Positions 17,361-26,258 of a stretch of DNA of 53,007 nt are shown piece by piece (position 1 is the first letter of the stretch; every line of letters begins with the position of its first letter). The notes below the pieces were generated by a model. It was not told the DNA's origin and searched no databases. It worked only from the letters and a program-made list of their open reading frames with translations. Source of the DNA: Acetomicrobium hydrogeniformans (GTDB lineage: Bacteria > Synergistota > Synergistia > Synergistales > JAFGMB01); contig JAENYO010000006.1 in assembly GCA_016841745.1 (NCBI GenBank), forward strand, positions 1 to 53,007, written 5' to 3'. The translations under genes and the position numbers were made by a program.

Positions 17361-18185
17361 TCAGTCAGTGTTTTCAAGAAGAAATTTCTTGATCCTGTTC
17401 TTCGGCAAATCGTACCGTTTCTGGATCTGGAGAACTATATTCTTTACAGACATGCCTAATCTTAAAAGATCTAATGCTTCAGCATTCCACTCTTTTTCAT
17501 CAGAATTAACGGTAATCGGAGCTTCATCGACAACAAGAACCAGCTCTCCCTTTATGCCCCCTTTGTCGTTTATATAAGACATAAGCCCAGAGAGGGACAT
17601 TTTCAGGGTTTCCTGATAAATCTTGCTCATTTCCCTGGATAAGGCACATCTACGTTCTCCAAAGACCTGGATCATATCCTCAAGGTGCTTCACTGCTTTA
17701 TGTGGCGAAAGAAAAAAAACAACAGGCCACGAAATATCTTTGAATCTTTCCAGATATTTGATTCTCTCTCCTTTTTTATCGGGAAGAAACCCTACAAAGG
17801 TAAAAGGATGAGGTTGAAATCCAGAAAAGAGTACAGCCGGAATAATTGCAGAGGCTCCAGGCAGAACATCTACCTGAATACCCTCATCAAGTGCAGCCTT
17901 AATAATAACATAGCCTGGATCAGAAATCCCCGGGGTTCCTGCATCTGAAACAAGTGCCACCTTCCTGTCTTCCTTCAGAATCCTGAGAAGGTAGGAAGTT
18001 CTGGCCTTTTCATTATGTTCATAGTAGGAGATAAGTTTGTTCCTGATCTCGAAATGCTTCAAAAGTCGAGAGGTTTTGCGTGTATCTTCACAGGCTATAA
18101 GATCCGCATCTTTCAAGACTTCAAGGGCCCTGAGAGTGATATCTCCCAGATTGCCGATCGGGGTCGGTACAACGATCAAAGGCAT
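17361..18185 (-). CDS. rsmI: 16S rRNA 2'-O-ribose C1402 methyltransferase
   Basis: SAM-dependent methyltransferase that 2'-O-methylates C1402 in the 16S decoding centre. The 274-residue length fits. The N-terminus MPLIVVPTPIGNLGDITLRA is diagnostic of the family, followed by CEDTRKTSRLL and the SDAGTPGISDPG motif near residue 80. A short C-terminal helical extension (LPKNRIKKFLLE) completes it. The ATG at 18183-18185 lies inside the end of the preceding methyltransferase gene (10-base overlap), implying translational coupling. In several bacteria rsmI follows a tRNA1(Val)-type methyltransferase gene exactly as here. Confidence 0.95.
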   Translation of the reverse strand: MPLIVVPTPIGNLGDITLRALEVLKDADLIACEDTRKTSRLLKHFEIRNKLISYYEHNEKARTSYLLRILKEDRKVALVSDAGTPGISDPGYVIIKAALDEGIQVDVLPGASAIIPAVLFSGFQPHPFTFVGFLPDKKGERIKYLERFKDISWPVVFFLSPHKAVKHLEDMIQVFGERRCALSREMSKIYQETLKMSLSGLMSYINDKGGIKGELVLVVDEAPITVNSDEKEWNAEALDLLRLGMSVKNIVLQIQKRYDLPKNRIKKFLLENTD

Positions 18186-18919
18186 GGATTATCCTCCAAT
18201 GAATAAGCTCTCTTCAGCTCTTCTGTATATTCTCCATTTTCATTACACACCAGTAAAGGAGGATCTAGATTTAAACCTTCGCCAGCATTTTTACAGGCGT
18301 AAATTAGCGCAACCGAAGCCTTTTTGCCAGGACAGGGGTAAACAGGTCTGAACCTTTTGACCATAGTTCTATTTTTAACCAGAAGAGACATTAGTTCATC
18401 TACCCGACCAGCGTTGAAAACAAGGTAAAGGCGCCCCTTGTTTCGAAGCAGATAAGTTGCCGCAACAATTACATCCTGAAGGGTACAGGATAAACCGTGA
18501 TTAGCTACAGCTGAACTTTCATCAGAACTTGGTCTGTTACGTAATTTTTCAAAATATGGAGGATTAGCAACTACAACGTCAAATGATTGAGGCTTGTAGA
18601 TATTACTTATATTCCTAAGATCTCCCTGTCTAAACCTTACTCTGTTCTCAAGATTGTTTTTTTGAATATTCTCCACACCAAGTGACCAGAGGTCTTTCTG
18701 GATCTCCAGTCCCTCTATCAGACGGGCTGAGGGATACCTCAGAGCAAGAAGGAGGGAAACAGCACCATGTGCACTCCCCAACTCAATAGCACTCTCTCCT
18801 CCTTTGATCTTGACAAAGGCGGAGAGAAGCACCGTATCAATGTTGACACGAGGCCCACACAAGGGCTGGAACAACTTAAGTTTTCCATAAAGTATATCGT
18901 CACATGTTCTATCGGTCAT
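18176..18919 (-). CDS. tRNA1(Val) A37 N6-methyltransferase-like protein
   Basis: Rossmann-fold SAM-dependent methyltransferase with the adenine-N6 signature NPPY at residues 119-122 and a SAM-binding loop ELGSAHGAVS near 46. It most resembles TrmN6/YfiC enzymes that methylate A37 of tRNA-Val. I choose the ATG at 18917-18919 because it overlaps the smc stop as ATGA, giving 247 residues; a TTG two codons earlier (18925) is the alternative. It is coupled to rsmI by a 10-base overlap, so two nucleic-acid methyltransferases are made together. The exact substrate is inferred from family resemblance only. Confidence 0.87.
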   Translation of the reverse strand: MTDRTCDDILYGKLKLFQPLCGPRVNIDTVLLSAFVKIKGGESAIELGSAHGAVSLLLALRYPSARLIEGLEIQKDLWSLGVENIQKNNLENRVRFRQGDLRNISNIYKPQSFDVVVANPPYFEKLRNRPSSDESSAVANHGLSCTLQDVIVAATYLLRNKGRLYLVFNAGRVDELMSLLVKNRTMVKRFRPVYPCPGKKASVALIYACKNAGEGLNLDPPLLVCNENGEYTEELKRAYSLEDNPCL

Positions 18920-21900
18920 TTCCAATCATCCAATTTAACTCCAACAATCTGCGACAGACCGGGCTCTCTCATGGTAACACCATACATTATATTGGCATTT
19001 TCCATGGTAATCCTTCTATGGGTCATAATAACGAGTTGAAGAGATGTAGAATAATCCAGGATAAGATCAACAAACCTTCCAAGGTTTACATCATCCAGAG
19101 CAGCATCCACTTCATCAAGAACCGCTAGAGGAACTTCTGCCACCTCCATAGATGCAAAGAGGAGCGAAATAGCTGTCAGAGATTGCTCCCCCCCTGATAG
19201 TTGATTGAGGTTCTGCATTTTTTTGCCAGGAGGCCTGGCTATTATATCTACGCCACAATCCCAGATAGAACCGCTTTCCTGTATTGTCAGATGTGCTTCT
19301 CCTCCCCCAAAAAGTCTTTTAAAAAGAGAATCAAACCTCTTATCAACTTTCTGAAGAGCACCTCGAAAAATCTGTTCAACCTGCTTATCAAGGTTCTCGA
19401 TCATATTTTTCAACTGACCTGAGCCAGTCATGATATCGTGGGTCTGTTCCTCAAGGTAAGATATCCGTTCCTTCAGCGAAGAATCTTCAGACAAACATCC
19501 CTGGTCAATTTCACCAAATCCTCTGATCTTCTTTTCAAGTACCCTGATCCTGTTCTGAAGATCTGCCTGATCGACTTGAGATAGATCCAGATCACCCTGC
19601 GCGGTAAACCTATCTCCCCACATCTCCAAAAGCTGTTCCATATCCCGTTGTACAGATAATCTATCATTTTCAAGTCTGTTCTGATCATTTTCAAGCAGCC
19701 GCAGTATTTCAGAAGCCCCATTATATCTGGAAGTGATAGAATCCAGTTTCCTTCCATAATTTTCCATGGATTCCCGGTCAAGTCTGATCTTCAATCTCTC
19801 CGCATTAAGATCAGCCCATAGTTCCAACCCATACAATCCATTATTTTTAAGTTTTCCCAAGGATTCGATAATCAGGGTTTCAAGGTTACGTTTTTCAGAC
19901 TGGATCTCCAAGAGCGTTCTTTCAAGTCTGGTTTTTTCTTCCACTATTCTTTTGATTATCTGATTGGAAGATTTCAACTTTTCTTTCAGAAGGTTAACCT
20001 TATTCTCCTCCTGGGACAGTTGGACTTTCAGTTGACTTATATCAGTACTATCCAAGGTATCGCTTACCATCTTGATCCCAAGAGATCGATATTCAAGCTG
20101 AATCTTACGTCTTTTTTCCCAGAATAGGATAAGATTATCACTTGATTTAACCTTAGCATCTCCAACATGATTCAGCTCGGACGTAAATGATGACAATTGA
20201 ATATCATTCTGTTTAAGGGAAGAACTCAGGTCATGTAATTCCAGATTGATCTTTTCTTTCAGTTCCGCAAAGTTTTGTTCTTTTTTTTCTAAATGATCAA
20301 GTTCAATAGCAAGCATTTTTATCCTGGAGATATTTTCTTCAAAGATAGTCTTTTTCTTTTCAAGTTCAAGCTTCTGTTCTACGATACCTGGACCTCTTCG
20401 CCTGAATCCACCTGATACATGACCTTGAGGCGAAAAAACCTCTCCATCCAGAGTAACTACAGGAAAACGGACCCTCCGGGATACAAGTTCCCTTGCATTC
20501 ACAAAGGTTTCAACAAATAGGACATCCCCTATCAGATGCTCCAGAGCCGGCAACCATTTATCCTCTACAGATATCAAATCTATAGCCCATCCGATTACAC
20601 CGGACTTATGATCAAGATCAGTTCCATTGTGCAACTTGGGTCGACACCGGTCCAAAGGGAGCATGGTGACCCTTCCTGCTCCTCGTTTCTTAAGATAATC
20701 AATACAGATCTGGGCTTCGTCCATATTGTCTACCATTAGCCAGAATAATCTTCCTCCAAGGAAAGAATCCAATCCTTGAGCTAATCTTGTAGGGGCGGTA
20801 AAGACTTCTATTAAAGGGACAGGCGAAACATTCAATCTGCCAAGCCTTGACCCCGAGGTGAGAAAACGAACTGGTTCAGGATACCCTTTTTCCTCAACAG
20901 TCGTTCGCAGATCATCAAGAAAGACTTCAAGATTTCTTTGTTCTTTTTTAAGGACCTGAAGATTCCCTGCTATATTCCGGCATTGTGTAAAGATCTGGGA
21001 ATGTTGATCCGTCAATGAAACAGATCTGGAAGCAAGTAAGTCCTGTTTATCACTCTGGTTCCTACCTTTTCTCTCCAGATCCACTATTTCCCGTTCAAGT
21101 TGTCTTTTACGATTTTTCAGGTTCCTGAGAGATCTGATAAGTGTTTCGATTTTTACTGTTATCTGCCCCTTCTGCTGACGCAATTCAGTAAAATATCTTG
21201 TCTGATCTCTCCTCTGTTTTTCCTGGTCTTCAAATATTTTCTCTTTAGAAACACATTCATCTTTTAGCAAATTGAGAACTGAAAGCCTGTTTTGGAGATC
21301 AGACTGCAGCATCCGTACCCCTTCAGATGATGATTGAGTTTCTTTTTTCAGAGCAGCCAGGTCTTCCTGTAATTGACGCTCTTCTTTGTTTATGACATCT
21401 ATCCGCTGTCGGGCATTCTTCAGTGATGTTGCAGTTATGAAACATTGACGGAACAGGTTCTCTCTAACAGTCAGTATCTTATCAATAGTTTCATAACGAA
21501 GGTTTAAACCTTCTTCAATTTCCTTTTTCTTTCTTCTGTATTTGTGTAAAGATTTGCTCCATATATCACTCCAGAACATCCTTCCTGCAGCTTCATTCTG
21601 AAGTCTTTTTTCTTTTATAGACAGACTCTCATGTTTTGCTTTTAAAAAAGATATCCTCGTGAAATAGTATAATTTTCTCTGTTCTTCAAGCTCTTCAAGA
21701 ACAACTCGTGCCTGAGATGCTTTTCTGACGTGAGGTTCTATCTGTTTTCTTCGACTCTGCAGCTCAGACATTAGAGTCTGAAGTCTCAATAACTCCGAAG
21801 AAGCGAGATCGAGCTTTCTATTCGCTTCATCTCGTTTCTTACGGTATTTATCGATGCCAAAGAGACTTTCAAGATGAAGACGTCTCTGGAAAGGTCTGTG

Positions 21901-22332
21901 TCTTATAGCTTCTGCGACTTCACCCTGACCGATAAAAGCAAACTGTTCCCCTTCAAGTCTGAAACCGGATTTTATCTCCTGCAGGTCCTGAAGACGAACT
22001 TTTTCACCATCAACCATTAAAAGGGTCCCTTTAACCGTGGAATAAGTTCTCCGAATTGTAACTGATTTTGATATATCAGAAAGTTGAAGGATCGACTCAG
22101 CCTCATTGGAGGAAGGTATACTTATGCTTCCCTGAAATAGAAGGTCACTCTGTCTCTGGATCCTTAGCCTTGCTGGAGTTGGATCCCCCAGAACCCATCG
22201 AATAGCGTCCAGAATATTACTTTTTCCACTCCCATTTGGACCAACTATGGCAGTGTAACCTGGAGATAATTCTATTTCATGGTTTCCCCCAAAACTTTTA
22301 AATCCCTTAAGACGAAGACGACTGATGTACAA
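18916..22332 (-). CDS. smc: Chromosome segregation protein SMC
   Basis: Condensin ATPase that organises and separates sister chromosomes, normally with ScpA and ScpB (not in this window). The 1138 residues show the full architecture: Walker A GPNGSGKS at 31-38, a long first coiled coil, a globular hinge at about 500-650 with its GG-rich segment, a second coiled coil, the LSGGEQ signature at 1045-1050 and a Walker B/D-loop VLDEVDAALDD near 1068. The start is TTG at 22330-22332 after GGGAGG, overlapping the end of rng by 26 bases. It sits between RNA-processing genes in the long run. Confidence 0.97.
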   Translation of the reverse strand: MYISRLRLKGFKSFGGNHEIELSPGYTAIVGPNGSGKSNILDAIRWVLGDPTPARLRIQRQSDLLFQGSISIPSSNEAESILQLSDISKSVTIRRTYSTVKGTLLMVDGEKVRLQDLQEIKSGFRLEGEQFAFIGQGEVAEAIRHRPFQRRLHLESLFGIDKYRKKRDEANRKLDLASSELLRLQTLMSELQSRRKQIEPHVRKASQARVVLEELEEQRKLYYFTRISFLKAKHESLSIKEKRLQNEAAGRMFWSDIWSKSLHKYRRKKKEIEEGLNLRYETIDKILTVRENLFRQCFITATSLKNARQRIDVINKEERQLQEDLAALKKETQSSSEGVRMLQSDLQNRLSVLNLLKDECVSKEKIFEDQEKQRRDQTRYFTELRQQKGQITVKIETLIRSLRNLKNRKRQLEREIVDLERKGRNQSDKQDLLASRSVSLTDQHSQIFTQCRNIAGNLQVLKKEQRNLEVFLDDLRTTVEEKGYPEPVRFLTSGSRLGRLNVSPVPLIEVFTAPTRLAQGLDSFLGGRLFWLMVDNMDEAQICIDYLKKRGAGRVTMLPLDRCRPKLHNGTDLDHKSGVIGWAIDLISVEDKWLPALEHLIGDVLFVETFVNARELVSRRVRFPVVTLDGEVFSPQGHVSGGFRRRGPGIVEQKLELEKKKTIFEENISRIKMLAIELDHLEKKEQNFAELKEKINLELHDLSSSLKQNDIQLSSFTSELNHVGDAKVKSSDNLILFWEKRRKIQLEYRSLGIKMVSDTLDSTDISQLKVQLSQEENKVNLLKEKLKSSNQIIKRIVEEKTRLERTLLEIQSEKRNLETLIIESLGKLKNNGLYGLELWADLNAERLKIRLDRESMENYGRKLDSITSRYNGASEILRLLENDQNRLENDRLSVQRDMEQLLEMWGDRFTAQGDLDLSQVDQADLQNRIRVLEKKIRGFGEIDQGCLSEDSSLKERISYLEEQTHDIMTGSGQLKNMIENLDKQVEQIFRGALQKVDKRFDSLFKRLFGGGEAHLTIQESGSIWDCGVDIIARPPGKKMQNLNQLSGGEQSLTAISLLFASMEVAEVPLAVLDEVDAALDDVNLGRFVDLILDYSTSLQLVIMTHRRITMENANIMYGVTMREPGLSQIVGVKLDDWK

Positions 22333-23803
22333 CTACCGTTGCCTCCCGAACCTTCATTAATGAAAGTTTATGTTCGATCTGCTCCAGTGGACCCTGATAA
22401 TCAAGTCTGTACTTACTCCAGGGAAATTCCGGTTCCTCCTTGATAAAGATCTTCCTGTCCAGTTCATCTTCCCACCCATTCAGATATGTCTCAGCAATGT
22501 ATCTGGCTATAACAGGATGTGTTTCAAGAAGAAGGGCTTCGGATCTATTTGAATGTATAACCTTTCGAAGGAACCTTTTAATCCCTACCGCAATGCTGTC
22601 CTCTTTCAGAACCCATCCATATCCACCGCAGAAGGGACATCCCCTGGTAAGAGTAGCACGGATATCCTGCCTTGCCCGTTTTCTTGTTATCTCAACTAAT
22701 CCCAGTTGGGTTACCCCAAATATTTTAGCTTTATATCGATCACCCTGAAATATTAATTCAAGTCTACTGATGAGCAAGTTACGATCTTCTTCATGATCCA
22801 TGTCTATAAAGTCAATAACAACAATTCCGCCTATCGCACGAACCCGGAGTTGACGGGCTATCTCTTCTACTGCTTCAAGATTAGTATTCAGGACTGTGTG
22901 CCTGAGATCCTTACTGCCGATATATTTGCCAGTGTTAACATCGATAAGGGTAAGTGCCTCAGCCTGATCGATAACAAGATAAGCACCTGATCTTAACCAG
23001 ACCTTCTTGTCCAGAATAGTTTCAAGTTCTCTTTCTATACCATAAGATTCAAAGATCGGGATTGACCCTCTGTAGAGATCTATTTCAGGGCAACGTCCCC
23101 TGGATATATTATCAAGATGGTCAGCTATTCTGTCATATTCCTCCTGGTTATCTACAATTATCTCCGAAACATCCTCAGTAAGCTCATCCCGAAGAATTCT
23201 CCCGACAAGACCCAGATCTCTGTAAATCAGACAGGGAGCACTCTGTGTTATTGAATTACGTTCAATTTCTCTCCATAACCCGATCAGATACTCCATATCG
23301 TTAATCAGGTCAGTTTCTTCAACACCATCTGCAGCAGTTCTGATAATTATCCCAAAACCATCTTTCCTGATATGTTTGGCAATACTCCTGAGCCTTTCTC
23401 TTTCTTCTTCATTGTCTATTCTTTTAGATACCCCTATCTCATGACCACCTGGGACCACAACGAGATAACGTCCTGGAAGGGATATTCTTGCTGTAACTCT
23501 TGCACCTTTATTCTTTCTGGCTGTTTTGACTACCTGAACTACTACCTGATCGTTAGGTTTAAGGTCAAGGCCTCTGGCATCGTTAAGATAAAGAAAGGCA
23601 TTTCGGCCATCTCCAAGGCTGACAAAAGCAGCATGAATACCAGGAAGAACACTTTCAACCCTAGCGGTATATATTTCACCAGTTTTCTGTCGTTCCCACA
23701 TTCGTTCATAAAAAATATCCTGAAGTTTCCCATCTTCCAAGATGGCAACACGCATTTCTTCACTATCTATGGTATTTGCTATTATTTTTCTATCTATTGA
23801 CAA
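22307..23803 (-). CDS. rng: Ribonuclease G (Rne/Rng family)
   Basis: Single-strand endoribonuclease of the RNase E/G family, acting in rRNA maturation and mRNA decay. At 498 residues it is the short RNase G form without the RNase E scaffold tail. An S1 domain lies at about residues 35-110. Catalytic Asp 288 (DVNTG) and Asp 331 (VIDFID) match RNase E D303 and D346 in spacing. The zinc-link RGCPFC has Cys 389 and 392, the dimerisation site. The start is TTG at 23801-23803 after GGGGAGGT. It directly follows the radical SAM/DUF2344 pair, a linkage known from several phyla. Confidence 0.96.
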   Translation of the reverse strand: MSIDRKIIANTIDSEEMRVAILEDGKLQDIFYERMWERQKTGEIYTARVESVLPGIHAAFVSLGDGRNAFLYLNDARGLDLKPNDQVVVQVVKTARKNKGARVTARISLPGRYLVVVPGGHEIGVSKRIDNEEERERLRSIAKHIRKDGFGIIIRTAADGVEETDLINDMEYLIGLWREIERNSITQSAPCLIYRDLGLVGRILRDELTEDVSEIIVDNQEEYDRIADHLDNISRGRCPEIDLYRGSIPIFESYGIERELETILDKKVWLRSGAYLVIDQAEALTLIDVNTGKYIGSKDLRHTVLNTNLEAVEEIARQLRVRAIGGIVVIDFIDMDHEEDRNLLISRLELIFQGDRYKAKIFGVTQLGLVEITRKRARQDIRATLTRGCPFCGGYGWVLKEDSIAVGIKRFLRKVIHSNRSEALLLETHPVIARYIAETYLNGWEDELDRKIFIKEEPEFPWSKYRLDYQGPLEQIEHKLSLMKVREATVVVHQSSSS

Positions 23804-23833: not shown

Positions 23834-24454
23834 TCATCGATCTTCTCCAATCAATGAAAGAACAGCAGAACCGTTCCACTCTCCAACAATTGACCTTACA
23901 AGACAGATCTCTGACCATTTCTGTATAATTCCCTTGGCCTGAAAATACTTGATCAAAACACTGGGGCCAAGTCCTCCAGGATTGGATAAAACAATAGTTA
24001 CAGAGTCGTTTGACCGAGAACAGTACAGAATGGACTCCTCAAAAGGGGGCGCCTGATTCAAAGCCAAGAACATAGAAGACACTTTCTTACCATCTCTCGG
24101 GATTAAAACATAAGAAGCTGATCCACATTTTTTATTGAGAGATGGCCCTTCTACTTCGATCGAACGCCGTATTTCAAGTCCCTCTGGTAGATGTTCATTC
24201 AGGATGGAAGTAAAAGATCCAACCCTATTTCCAAACCAGACCTCTGCCGGTTCTTCAAGTGCAACAATACCAACGGGGAGGGCTGGACCAAGGGTTATCC
24301 TGGGACGGGGAGAGAACCCTTGTGACATAAGAGGCTTCATCCCAGCTCTACGTAAAGATCTGTAAAAGATCTGAGGCAAAACAACATGCGGGATGAAGCA
24401 GGTTTTGCCTCTTTTCGAATATGTAAACCTTATCCTGAAAACAGAATCAGACAT
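23834..24454 (-). CDS. DUF2344 radical SAM-linked protein
   Basis: 206-residue protein of the DUF2344 (TIGR03936) family, recognisable from its N-terminus SDSVFRIRFTYSKRGKTCFI and the MSQGFSPRPRITLGPALPVG segment at about 40-60. It always accompanies, or is fused to, a TIGR03960 radical SAM protein, and is so here: the ATG at 24452-24454 overlaps the radical SAM stop by eight bases. A longer in-frame start at 24535 is rejected because it would lie within the upstream gene. The function is not established. The constant partnership suggests that it presents substrate to, or completes, the radical SAM enzyme. Confidence 0.9.
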   Translation of the reverse strand: MSDSVFRIRFTYSKRGKTCFIPHVVLPQIFYRSLRRAGMKPLMSQGFSPRPRITLGPALPVGIVALEEPAEVWFGNRVGSFTSILNEHLPEGLEIRRSIEVEGPSLNKKCGSASYVLIPRDGKKVSSMFLALNQAPPFEESILYCSRSNDSVTIVLSNPGGLGPSVLIKYFQAKGIIQKWSEICLVRSIVGEWNGSAVLSLIGEDR

Positions 24455-26258
24455 TGTGTACCCACCCGCATCCTTTAGTCTGAAGTCCACAGTTGTTACA
24501 ACCATTCCAGCGACAATCCGGCGTAAGTATTTCACCTAATGCTCTTGCCCTTTCTTCAAGGAGAAAGGATTTTGTGACCCCAACATCAATATGTTCCCAA
24601 GGAAGAATTTCCTTCACAGATCTGCCTCGAGTATATTTCAAAGGATCGATCCCGGATTCGTCAAATGATGAAAGCCATCTTGCAAGGTTAAAGCATTCAC
24701 TCCAACCATCAAAACGGGCCCCTTTTCTCCAGGTTAATTCTATAATATCAGCAAGCCTGCTGTCTCCTCTTGCGAATACACCTTCAAGGAATGTCTGTTC
24801 CGGTTCATGGTATCCAAGGGATATATGTTTGTTCCTGACCCGGGATTTTACCATACGACCTTTATCTCTGAGACCCTCAATTGATTCCTGCTCTTCCCAT
24901 TGAAAGGGAGTATGTGCTTTTGGAACAAATCCGGCTACTGAGACATTTATACTAGCCTTTCTCTTATAATTTCTGGCAATTCGATGCGCAAGTTCTGCTA
25001 TGTCTAAAATACCCATTAAATCTTCTTCAGTTTCTGTGGGAAGACCCATCATGAAGTAAAGCTTTACTCTCTGCCATCCATGTTTGAAAGCAGCGTCAAG
25101 ACTCTCGTGAATATTTTCTTCAGTTACCCCTTTATTTATGACATTTCTGAGTCTTTGTGTCCCTGCTTCCGGGGCAAAGGTAAGTCCACCTGTCCTCAAA
25201 ACTTTAAGGGTAGATGCCATATCGATCGAAAAAGCATCCATACGAAGACTTGGAAGACTCAGCTTCGTCTCCCTTTCATTCAGGAAAGGAGTAATTCTCT
25301 GAATTAACTCATCAAGACCGGAATAATCACATGAAGCAAGAGAAAGAAGACCAACCTCTTCCCATCCTGTAGAGTTAACAAGGGCCTTTATTAGCTTCTC
25401 AACTGTCTCGGGTTTTCTTTCCCTGACAGGGCGATATATCATACCAGCCTGACAGAAACGACATCCACGGGTACAGCCCCGAAATAATTCAACGGGAATA
25501 CGGTCATGCACAACAGAAGCCGTCGGAACTATCATTTTCTCCGGGTAATAACTTTCGTCAAGATTATGGATAATGTTTCTGGAGATAGATCTTTTCTGAC
25601 CAGAAAGAGTAAGATCTGCAAAAAGAGCAGGAACATAGGCTCCTGGGATCTTGGCTATTTCAGAAAGGATATCCCGCCTGTCCATTCCTCTGGTAGACTC
25701 AATAACCTTAAGGAGAGTGGGTAGAAACTTCTCACCATCACCAAGGCAGAATACATCTACAAATGGAGCGACAGGTTCTGGAGTAAGGGCACACGGCCCA
25801 CCTGCAACAATAATGGGTGATTCATCTCCCCTATCTTCTGACCTGAGGGGAATTCCTCCCATATCAAGCATTGTCAATATATTAGTGTAAGTAAGTTCAT
25901 ACTGTAGAGTAAAACCAACTACATCAAAATCCTTAAGAACCCTTTTACCTTCAACCGATTTCAGAGGAACACCTGATTTCCTCATCTTCTCTTCCATATC
26001 AATCCATGGACAGTAAGCCCTCTCTACATCGGCATACCCCAGTTCCTTGACCAATGGATACAGAATCTGGTAACCGACATAACTCATACCAATTTCATAA
26101 ACATCCGGAAAAGCAAGACAAACCCTGACAAGGTCTGAAGATCCATTTTTCGGCTCGGTATTTCCCCATTCGTTTCCTACGTATCGGGAAGGACGCTTAA
26201 CATCTGCCATTAAAGGCCAAATGTTATCATCAAATTCCCTGAAGTTCACTTCATCCAT
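24447..26258 (-). CDS. B12-binding-like radical SAM protein, TIGR03960 family
   Basis: 603-residue radical SAM enzyme of unknown reaction. An N-terminal B12-binding-like domain covers about residues 40-190. The iron-sulfur motif is CTRGCRFC with Cys 262, 266 and 269, followed by a TIM-barrel radical SAM core to about 500. The C-terminus carries four more cysteines (582, 587, 590, 597) that could hold a second cluster. The ATG at 26256-26258 follows AGGAG. It is translationally coupled to the DUF2344 gene and followed by RNase G, so an RNA-modification role is plausible but is inference. Confidence 0.92.
   Translation of the reverse strand: MDEVNFREFDDNIWPLMADVKRPSRYVGNEWGNTEPKNGSSDLVRVCLAFPDVYEIGMSYVGYQILYPLVKELGYADVERAYCPWIDMEEKMRKSGVPLKSVEGKRVLKDFDVVGFTLQYELTYTNILTMLDMGGIPLRSEDRGDESPIIVAGGPCALTPEPVAPFVDVFCLGDGEKFLPTLLKVIESTRGMDRRDILSEIAKIPGAYVPALFADLTLSGQKRSISRNIIHNLDESYYPEKMIVPTASVVHDRIPVELFRGCTRGCRFCQAGMIYRPVRERKPETVEKLIKALVNSTGWEEVGLLSLASCDYSGLDELIQRITPFLNERETKLSLPSLRMDAFSIDMASTLKVLRTGGLTFAPEAGTQRLRNVINKGVTEENIHESLDAAFKHGWQRVKLYFMMGLPTETEEDLMGILDIAELAHRIARNYKRKASINVSVAGFVPKAHTPFQWEEQESIEGLRDKGRMVKSRVRNKHISLGYHEPEQTFLEGVFARGDSRLADIIELTWRKGARFDGWSECFNLARWLSSFDESGIDPLKYTRGRSVKEILPWEHIDVGVTKSFLLEERARALGEILTPDCRWNGCNNCGLQTKGCGWVHNV

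Follow-up and report, generated by a model that had tools for sequence, protein, structure and literature searches.

Closest described systems

The gene pair described here can be compared with radical S-adenosylmethionine (SAM) enzymes on the one hand and with pseudouridine synthases on the other. The methylthiotransferases MiaB and RimO carry three N-terminal cysteines for a second cluster and a C-terminal TRAM domain; in these enzymes, as in LipA, an auxiliary [4Fe-4S] cluster is used in sulfur insertion, and RimO modifies uS12. AprD4 is taken here to be a related fold without cobalamin, and DxHxxG is a motif of cobalamin proteins. The aspartate of the TruA motif GRTDxGVHA is the catalytic residue of that enzyme, and inactive TruA-fold proteins serve in mitoribosome assembly. 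In PMC11796369, MgmA is described as a cobalamin-dependent methylase, the MCR glutamine C-methyltransferase, without a lower cobalt ligand. Mmp10, according to PMC8828468, lacks the canonical motifs including DxHxxG, yet binds cobalamin.

The two families of the pair itself are named "B12-binding radical SAM protein" (TIGR03960) and "radical SAM-associated" (TIGR03936/DUF2344) in the Pfam and NCBIfam models, with no function given. No description of the function of TIGR03960, DUF2344 or TIGR03936 was found in open-licence PMC papers, a search in which a paper using only the name TIGR03936 could be missed. The pair is thus a real, widespread and catalogued family with no function described in the literature searched.

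Gene order and family assignment

The window (the whole stretch of DNA that was analysed, 53,007 nt) encodes the pair and the gene that follows it as listed.

24447..26258, minus strand: TIGR03960 radical SAM protein, 603 aa, with Radical_SAM_N2 at residues 62-210 and Radical_SAM at 257-419 (family search)
23834..24454, minus strand: DUF2344/TIGR03936 partner, 206 aa, TruA-type pseudouridine-synthase fold (family search, model)
22307..23803, minus strand: RNase E/G family ribonuclease (RNase G), the conserved gene after DUF2344 (TIGR00757)

The initial annotation had recognized a radical SAM/DUF2344 pair beside RNase G, and its coordinates proved exact, with all three families above their cut-offs. 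The radical SAM open reading frame matched TIGR03960 at 712.1 bits (cut-off 462.3) and belongs to the radical SAM superfamily by its PF04055 match of 74.8 bits. The partner matched DUF2344 at 77.2 bits (cut-off 23.8) and TIGR03936 at 80.2 bits (cut-off 71.9), and RNase G matched TIGR00757 at 434.6 bits (cut-off 325.95). The 8-base overlap of the two genes was likewise confirmed at 24447-24454, between the end of the radical SAM stop codon (24447) and the DUF2344 ATG (24454). The list of open reading frames also offers a GTG farther upstream, at 24535, as a DUF2344 start, which is taken not to be the true one. The closest named relatives among the matches listed were four Synergistales/Synergistaceae MAGs with 54-58% identity, which makes Synergistota the probable origin of the window.

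On the minus strand the genes run in the order RadC, MreB-MreC-MreD, a PBP2-like protein, MinC-MinD-MinE, RodA, radical SAM, DUF2344, RNase G, SMC, a small methyltransferase and RsmI. Names for the pair, RNase G, the methyltransferase and RsmI came from family searches, and the remaining window genes were named from sequence reading. The small methyltransferase between SMC and RsmI (18176-18925, minus strand) was nearest to TrmN (NF047853), at 69.9 bits against a cut-off of 350.

Conserved motifs of the radical SAM protein

Relatives were compared in 95 loci, a non-random sample rich in Clostridia that comprised the top 15 matches found in the relatives (L001-L015) and the best 80 of 592 (L016-L095). 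From the loci among the matches listed, 51 radical SAM sequences were chosen by hand (11 fused, the window protein and 39 others) and aligned. Three motifs of the window protein were followed through these sets.

26088..26105, minus strand: D52-x-Y54-E55-x-G57, in the early part of the N-terminal Rossmann-like domain (sequence pattern)
25452..25475, minus strand: CxxxCxxC radical SAM cluster motif, C262/C266/C269, within RGCTRGCRFCQAG; Cys in 51/51 rows
24468..24515, minus strand: C-terminal four-cysteine motif, C582, C587, C590 and C597; first three Cys in 51/51 rows

Invariant in all 51 rows were, among others, the radical SAM cysteines, QAG, RPxR, D52, G62, GG 153-154 and the three C-terminal cysteines. 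An intact CxxxCxxC had been noted before, as had four extra cysteines at exactly these C-terminal positions. With C262/C266/C269 and C582/C587/C590 conserved as Cys in every aligned row, the cysteine motifs are, judged by conservation, not due to chance. The position of the fourth C-terminal cysteine moves: the C597 column is Cys in 25 of the 51 rows, and a fourth Cys was present no more than 25 aa from the third in 95/95 loci among the matches listed. A greedier pattern caught 90 of the listed loci, with the fourth Cys in 89. We infer that this motif forms a second metal site, either Fe-S or Zn.

The D-x-Y-[ED]-x-[GA] pattern was present in all 95 loci among the matches listed. DxHxxG was not found in the window protein, and in our reading of order and pattern, D-x-Y-[ED]-x-[GA] appears to stand where cobalamin proteins have DxHxxG. 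The missing histidine is compatible with B12, because Mmp10 still binds cobalamin without the canonical motifs (PMC8828468). A role of the DxYExG tyrosine as a cobalt ligand, by analogy with Mmp10, was considered and ruled out, since the Mmp10 paper has Tyr115 binding an iron-sulfur cluster and a Leu under the cobalt. No cobalamin riboswitch was found in the window or in the 9 loci scanned.

The window protein has further cysteines at 47, 83, 156 and 171, and these columns are Cys in 11, 10, 39 and 10 of the 51 rows, respectively. A conserved N-terminal Cys triad of the methylthiotransferase type was not found in these rows. The Pfam search gave no UPF0004 or TRAM match in the window protein, and its match to TIGR00089, the MiaB/RimO profile, was weak (19.4 bits, cut-off 251).

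A second, weaker TIGR03960-like protein was observed in 22 of the 41 genomes searched (for example G018:C3:148510-149805). Its frame is about 500-545 aa, it scores below the cut-off, and its match ends at about position 480-531 of the 605 model positions. One genome, G027, holds only this weaker protein. The paralogue may lack the C-terminal site and could then reveal the contribution of the partner.

Fold of the catalytic half

The structure was modelled for a natural fusion of the two proteins from Geobacteraceae (L082), and the fold match of the catalytic half is therefore that of a relative of the window protein. The model reached a pLDDT of 93.7 and a pTM of 0.93, and suggests that the halves are packed in a defined way. 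For residues 31-498, the best match was MgmA (9ccb; Z 22.5, 371 aa, 3.0 Å), followed by CysS (Z 18.9), MiaB (18.5), AprD4 (17.8), RimO (17.6) and TsrM (17.1); OxsB, TokK and lipoyl synthase chains also matched.

The B12-like domain proposed in the initial annotation thus found support in the fold of a relative, where the match to MgmA covers the Rossmann-like domain, but is weak in the window sequence, where DxHxxG is absent and the Pfam B12-binding match fell below the cut-off (E=0.0015, 18.8 bits, cut-off 32.1). Based on the modelled fold, cobalamin use by the TIGR03960 protein is predicted.

The same enzyme might instead work without cobalamin methylation, with its Rossmann-like domain empty or with the C-terminal site holding an auxiliary [4Fe-4S] cluster for sulfur insertion. 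The matches to MiaB, AprD4, RimO and lipoyl synthase chains, the TIGR00089 match, the invariant Cys-rich C-terminal site and the absence of DxHxxG all agree with such chemistry. MgmA, a cobalamin methylase, is however clearly the best match, and sulfur insertion is further disfavoured because the aligned rows show no conserved equivalents of the N-terminal cysteines found in methylthiotransferases, and UPF0004 and TRAM gave no match. We consider non-cobalamin chemistry unlikely, though it deserves serious attention.

The DUF2344 partner has a TruA fold that lacks the catalytic aspartate

AlphaFold modelled the DUF2344 protein of the window with a pLDDT of 95.2. Its best VIA-align match was TruA (1dj0; Z 12.9, 182 aa, 3.1 Å), and rows 1-45 of the 50 listed (Z 12.9 to 7.1) were pseudouridine synthases by title or chains presumed to have the same fold, the latter being from H/ACA particles and a trypanosome mitoribosomal small-subunit assembly intermediate. 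The first unrelated match, in row 46, had a Z of 5.3. Foldseek also ranked TruA/PUS chains first. When a profile of 71 DUF2344 sequences was compared with PDB sequences, T. thermophilus TruA (1vs3) was matched at E=7.7e-5, and pseudouridine synthases made up 10 of the 14 matches, the other 13 matches being weak (E of 0.05 or more). When profiles were compared between DUF2344 and the one TruA of this genome, no more than 49 columns aligned (probability 27%, E=0.00068), and the homology therefore rests on the PDB profile, Foldseek and VIA-align.

The 71-row alignment comprised the window protein and 70 of the 95 loci among the matches listed; L005 (the window itself), L039 (cut short) and 23 others, removed for thinning, were left out. 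Two stretches of the partner were of interest.

24308..24319, minus strand: G46-F47-x-P49 loop; G in 71, F in 64 and P in 70 of 71 rows (alignment)
24269..24277, minus strand: P60-V61-G62, aligned to D-A-G of TruA GRTDAGVHA (71-row alignment)

In the column of the catalytic Asp, the 71 rows had P (28), S (26), A (9), G (5), T (2) and Q (1), with no D. DUF2344 is probably an RNA-gripping partner and not a synthase. The genome of the window has its own TruA at another place, with the motif GRTDSGVHA. DUF2344 is named among pseudouridine-synthase families in PMC7955657, so the relation as such is not wholly new; the lack of Asp at this position in all aligned rows appears, as far as found, to be new.

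The window DUF2344 protein is basic (pI 9.5, net charge +8), and the median of the 71 sequences is near neutral (pI 7.8, net +1); calculated from sequence, the family-wide charge does not argue for RNA binding. A shared fold alone shows no function, and RNA binding by DUF2344 is a prediction from the model. The TruA fold of the partner is better evidence for RNA than the linkage to RNase G, and it turns a vague guess about RNA into a directly testable prediction.

The genome's own TruA gene (L096:1483-3399) is followed by a second gene that reads as MreB-like and is distinct from the mreB of the window.

Two of the best fold matches, MgmA and RimO, modify proteins, and rplU lies directly after DUF2344 in L034 and L052; both points would agree with a protein substrate, for example the nearby-encoded ribosomal protein bL21 or bL27. 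Against this, the constant partner has the fold of an RNA enzyme, and we regard a protein substrate as improbable.

Pairing and fusion of the two genes

By their positions the two genes act as one unit. DUF2344 was fused into the radical SAM open frame in 11/95 loci among the matches listed; in 83 it followed on the same strand at a distance of no more than 300 nt, and in one (L019) it was 1.2 kb away. In the Geobacteraceae phylum sample, all 58 DUF2344-positive genomes carried DUF2344 in an open frame of 760-935 aa, in keeping with a fusion in the whole sample. The two genes were on different contigs in 2 of 26 comparable relatives, G003 (C9/C1) and G012 (C21/C10), which belong to one genus. 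The partnership therefore survives separation, and these two unlinked cases slightly lower our confidence in the explanation favoured below.

Linkage to RNase G

The rng gene adjoined the pair in 163 of the 183 sampled genomes holding both DUF2344 and RNase E/G. It was downstream on the same strand in 99/99 co-occurring genomes of the Ruminococcus phylum sample, and in 23/26 and 41/58 of the two other phylum samples; in the three misses of the 23/26 sample, DUF2344 lay no more than 650 bp from a contig end. Among the matches listed, 87 fetched loci had 500 bp or more of downstream sequence, and 38 of them lacked rng there. No RNase E/G match was found in the genomes of these loci (0/38, many being MAGs of which the completeness was not given), compared with 7/7 comparison genomes. 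All 38 kept the radical SAM motif, the C-terminal Cys motif and the DxY motif intact.

DUF2344 occurred without RNase E/G in 9/119, 6/60 and 0/59 genomes of the Ruminococcus, Acidimicrobiales and Geobacteraceae phylum samples, respectively, and RNase E/G without DUF2344 in 8, 23 and 1. As G100 was counted both in the 38 and in the 9, the further DUF2344-positive genomes without RNase E/G number 14, not 15. In the Ruminococcus phylum sample the presence of the two was not significantly associated (Fisher p=0.08).

RNase G, where kept, mostly sits beside the pair, but the pair can do without it, so that RNase G counts as a conserved neighbour and not as an obligatory partner. It is dispensable because the 38 genomes lacking an RNase E/G match keep intact radical SAM motifs, and the linkage accordingly says little for a shared target. 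Of the earlier proposal that conserved linkage suggests a shared RNA target, the linkage stood and the argument was weakened. It is thus very unlikely that the pair serves RNase G, whether by a cofactor, in maturation or through a shared pre-rRNA substrate; the constant downstream position favours this, but the 38 genomes, the 14 further ones and the 32 reverse cases (8, 23 and 1) oppose it, and RNase G as an obligatory relation is largely refuted.

In one locus (L092:9571-13002), the gene directly after DUF2344 encodes an RNase E/G-type protein whose open frame, at 1144 aa, is unusually long.

Other neighbours and distribution

The recurrent neighbours are rng and, in some loci, then rplU, rpmA and obg (names by sequence reading), which point to ribosomes in general. 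Nine loci from RNase G-less genomes were scanned, and four of them (L083:9804-9877, L088:9816-9889, L080:10245-10325 and L077:10753-10842) carry a tRNA gene at most about 1.3 kb downstream of DUF2344.

DUF2344 was present in 60/61 genomes of the window's phylum sample and in 108/119, 32/60 and 58/59 genomes of the phyla of a Ruminococcus, an Acidimicrobiales and a Geobacteraceae genome, respectively. Left out of the Ruminococcus count were G181 and G211, and of the Acidimicrobiales count G240, where the only match was weak and in the range of TruA. The partner gene is thus kept by nearly all genomes in two of these samples (108/119 and 60/61), yet neither the libraries nor the papers searched assign the pair a function. 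DUF2344 was found in two of the 14 control genomes, those of Synechococcus elongatus and Thermotoga maritima; Haloferax volcanii matched neither TIGR03960 nor DUF2344, and the pair was absent from E. coli and B. subtilis. The pair may have been missed because it is absent from E. coli and B. subtilis. Among viral contigs, one stretch fitted a pattern and none encoded a relative.

Proposed function

From the families, invariant motifs, TruA fold, missing Asp, natural fusions and persistence without RNase G computed here, we favour, with somewhat more confidence than doubt, a two-part radical SAM enzyme, fused in some lineages, that modifies a base in a structured RNA, likely by methyl transfer and in rRNA or tRNA. 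C262, C266 and C269 of the TIGR03960 protein would bind a [4Fe-4S] cluster, and SAM would be cleaved to give a 5'-deoxyadenosyl radical. The N-terminal Rossmann-like domain would occupy the place of cobalamin in MgmA-type methylases, and because of this placement, radical transfer of a methyl (or other small) group to a base carbon seems likeliest. DUF2344, with its TruA fold lacking the Asp, would grip the RNA and bring the nucleotide to be modified to the radical active site. By sequence order the four C-terminal cysteines fall at the joint of the halves, where they may hold an auxiliary cluster or form a metal site with a structural role. As target, rRNA would be most likely, given the neighbouring genes for RNase G and, at certain loci, for bL21, bL27 and Obg; tRNA would come next. 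Radical modification of RNA, also suggested in the initial annotation, is now the best reading on account of the TruA fold without Asp, the argument from RNase G having been weakened.

A more specific version is plausible but tentative: a dead pseudouridine synthase was recruited as the RNA-gripping half of an enzyme for an unassigned, carbon-centred rRNA hypermodification, near-universal in the samples of clostridia-like Firmicutes, Synergistota and the Geobacteraceae phylum. If the pair does modify rRNA or tRNA, modification maps based on E. coli and a few other organisms leave out a type of radical chemistry that anaerobes use. Methylated dihydrouridine 2449, reportedly found in Clostridium sporogenes 23S rRNA, was thought of as a possible product. 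N-330, a cytidine derivative at 16S rRNA position 1404, was reported in T. maritima with its enzyme unassigned in 2008 (PMC2584109); T. maritima has both N-330 and DUF2344 and E. coli neither (PMC2584109 table, control genomes), but Haloferax volcanii makes N-330 without the pair, so a second, unrelated enzyme would be needed, and this product is extremely unlikely.

Comparison with known systems

By score, the window pair is an ordinary member of the TIGR03960 and TIGR03936 (PF10105) families with no structural difference, and in the alignment the second half of its DUF2344 is shorter than in many relatives. MgmA, TsrM, CysS, TokK and OxsB share with TIGR03960 a Rossmann-like domain and radical SAM barrel (Z about 15-22, 370-400 aa); unlike them, TIGR03960 has the C-terminal four-Cys site and a TruA-fold partner, and its cobalamin is putative. 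MiaB and RimO resemble it in the fold of the core and N-terminal domain (Z 18.5 and 17.6), whereas TIGR03960 lacks their conserved N-terminal Cys triad and a TRAM match. TruA, PUS1 and PUS3 share the whole fold of DUF2344 (Z 12.9), from which they differ in the catalytic Asp, replaced in 71/71 DUF2344 sequences.
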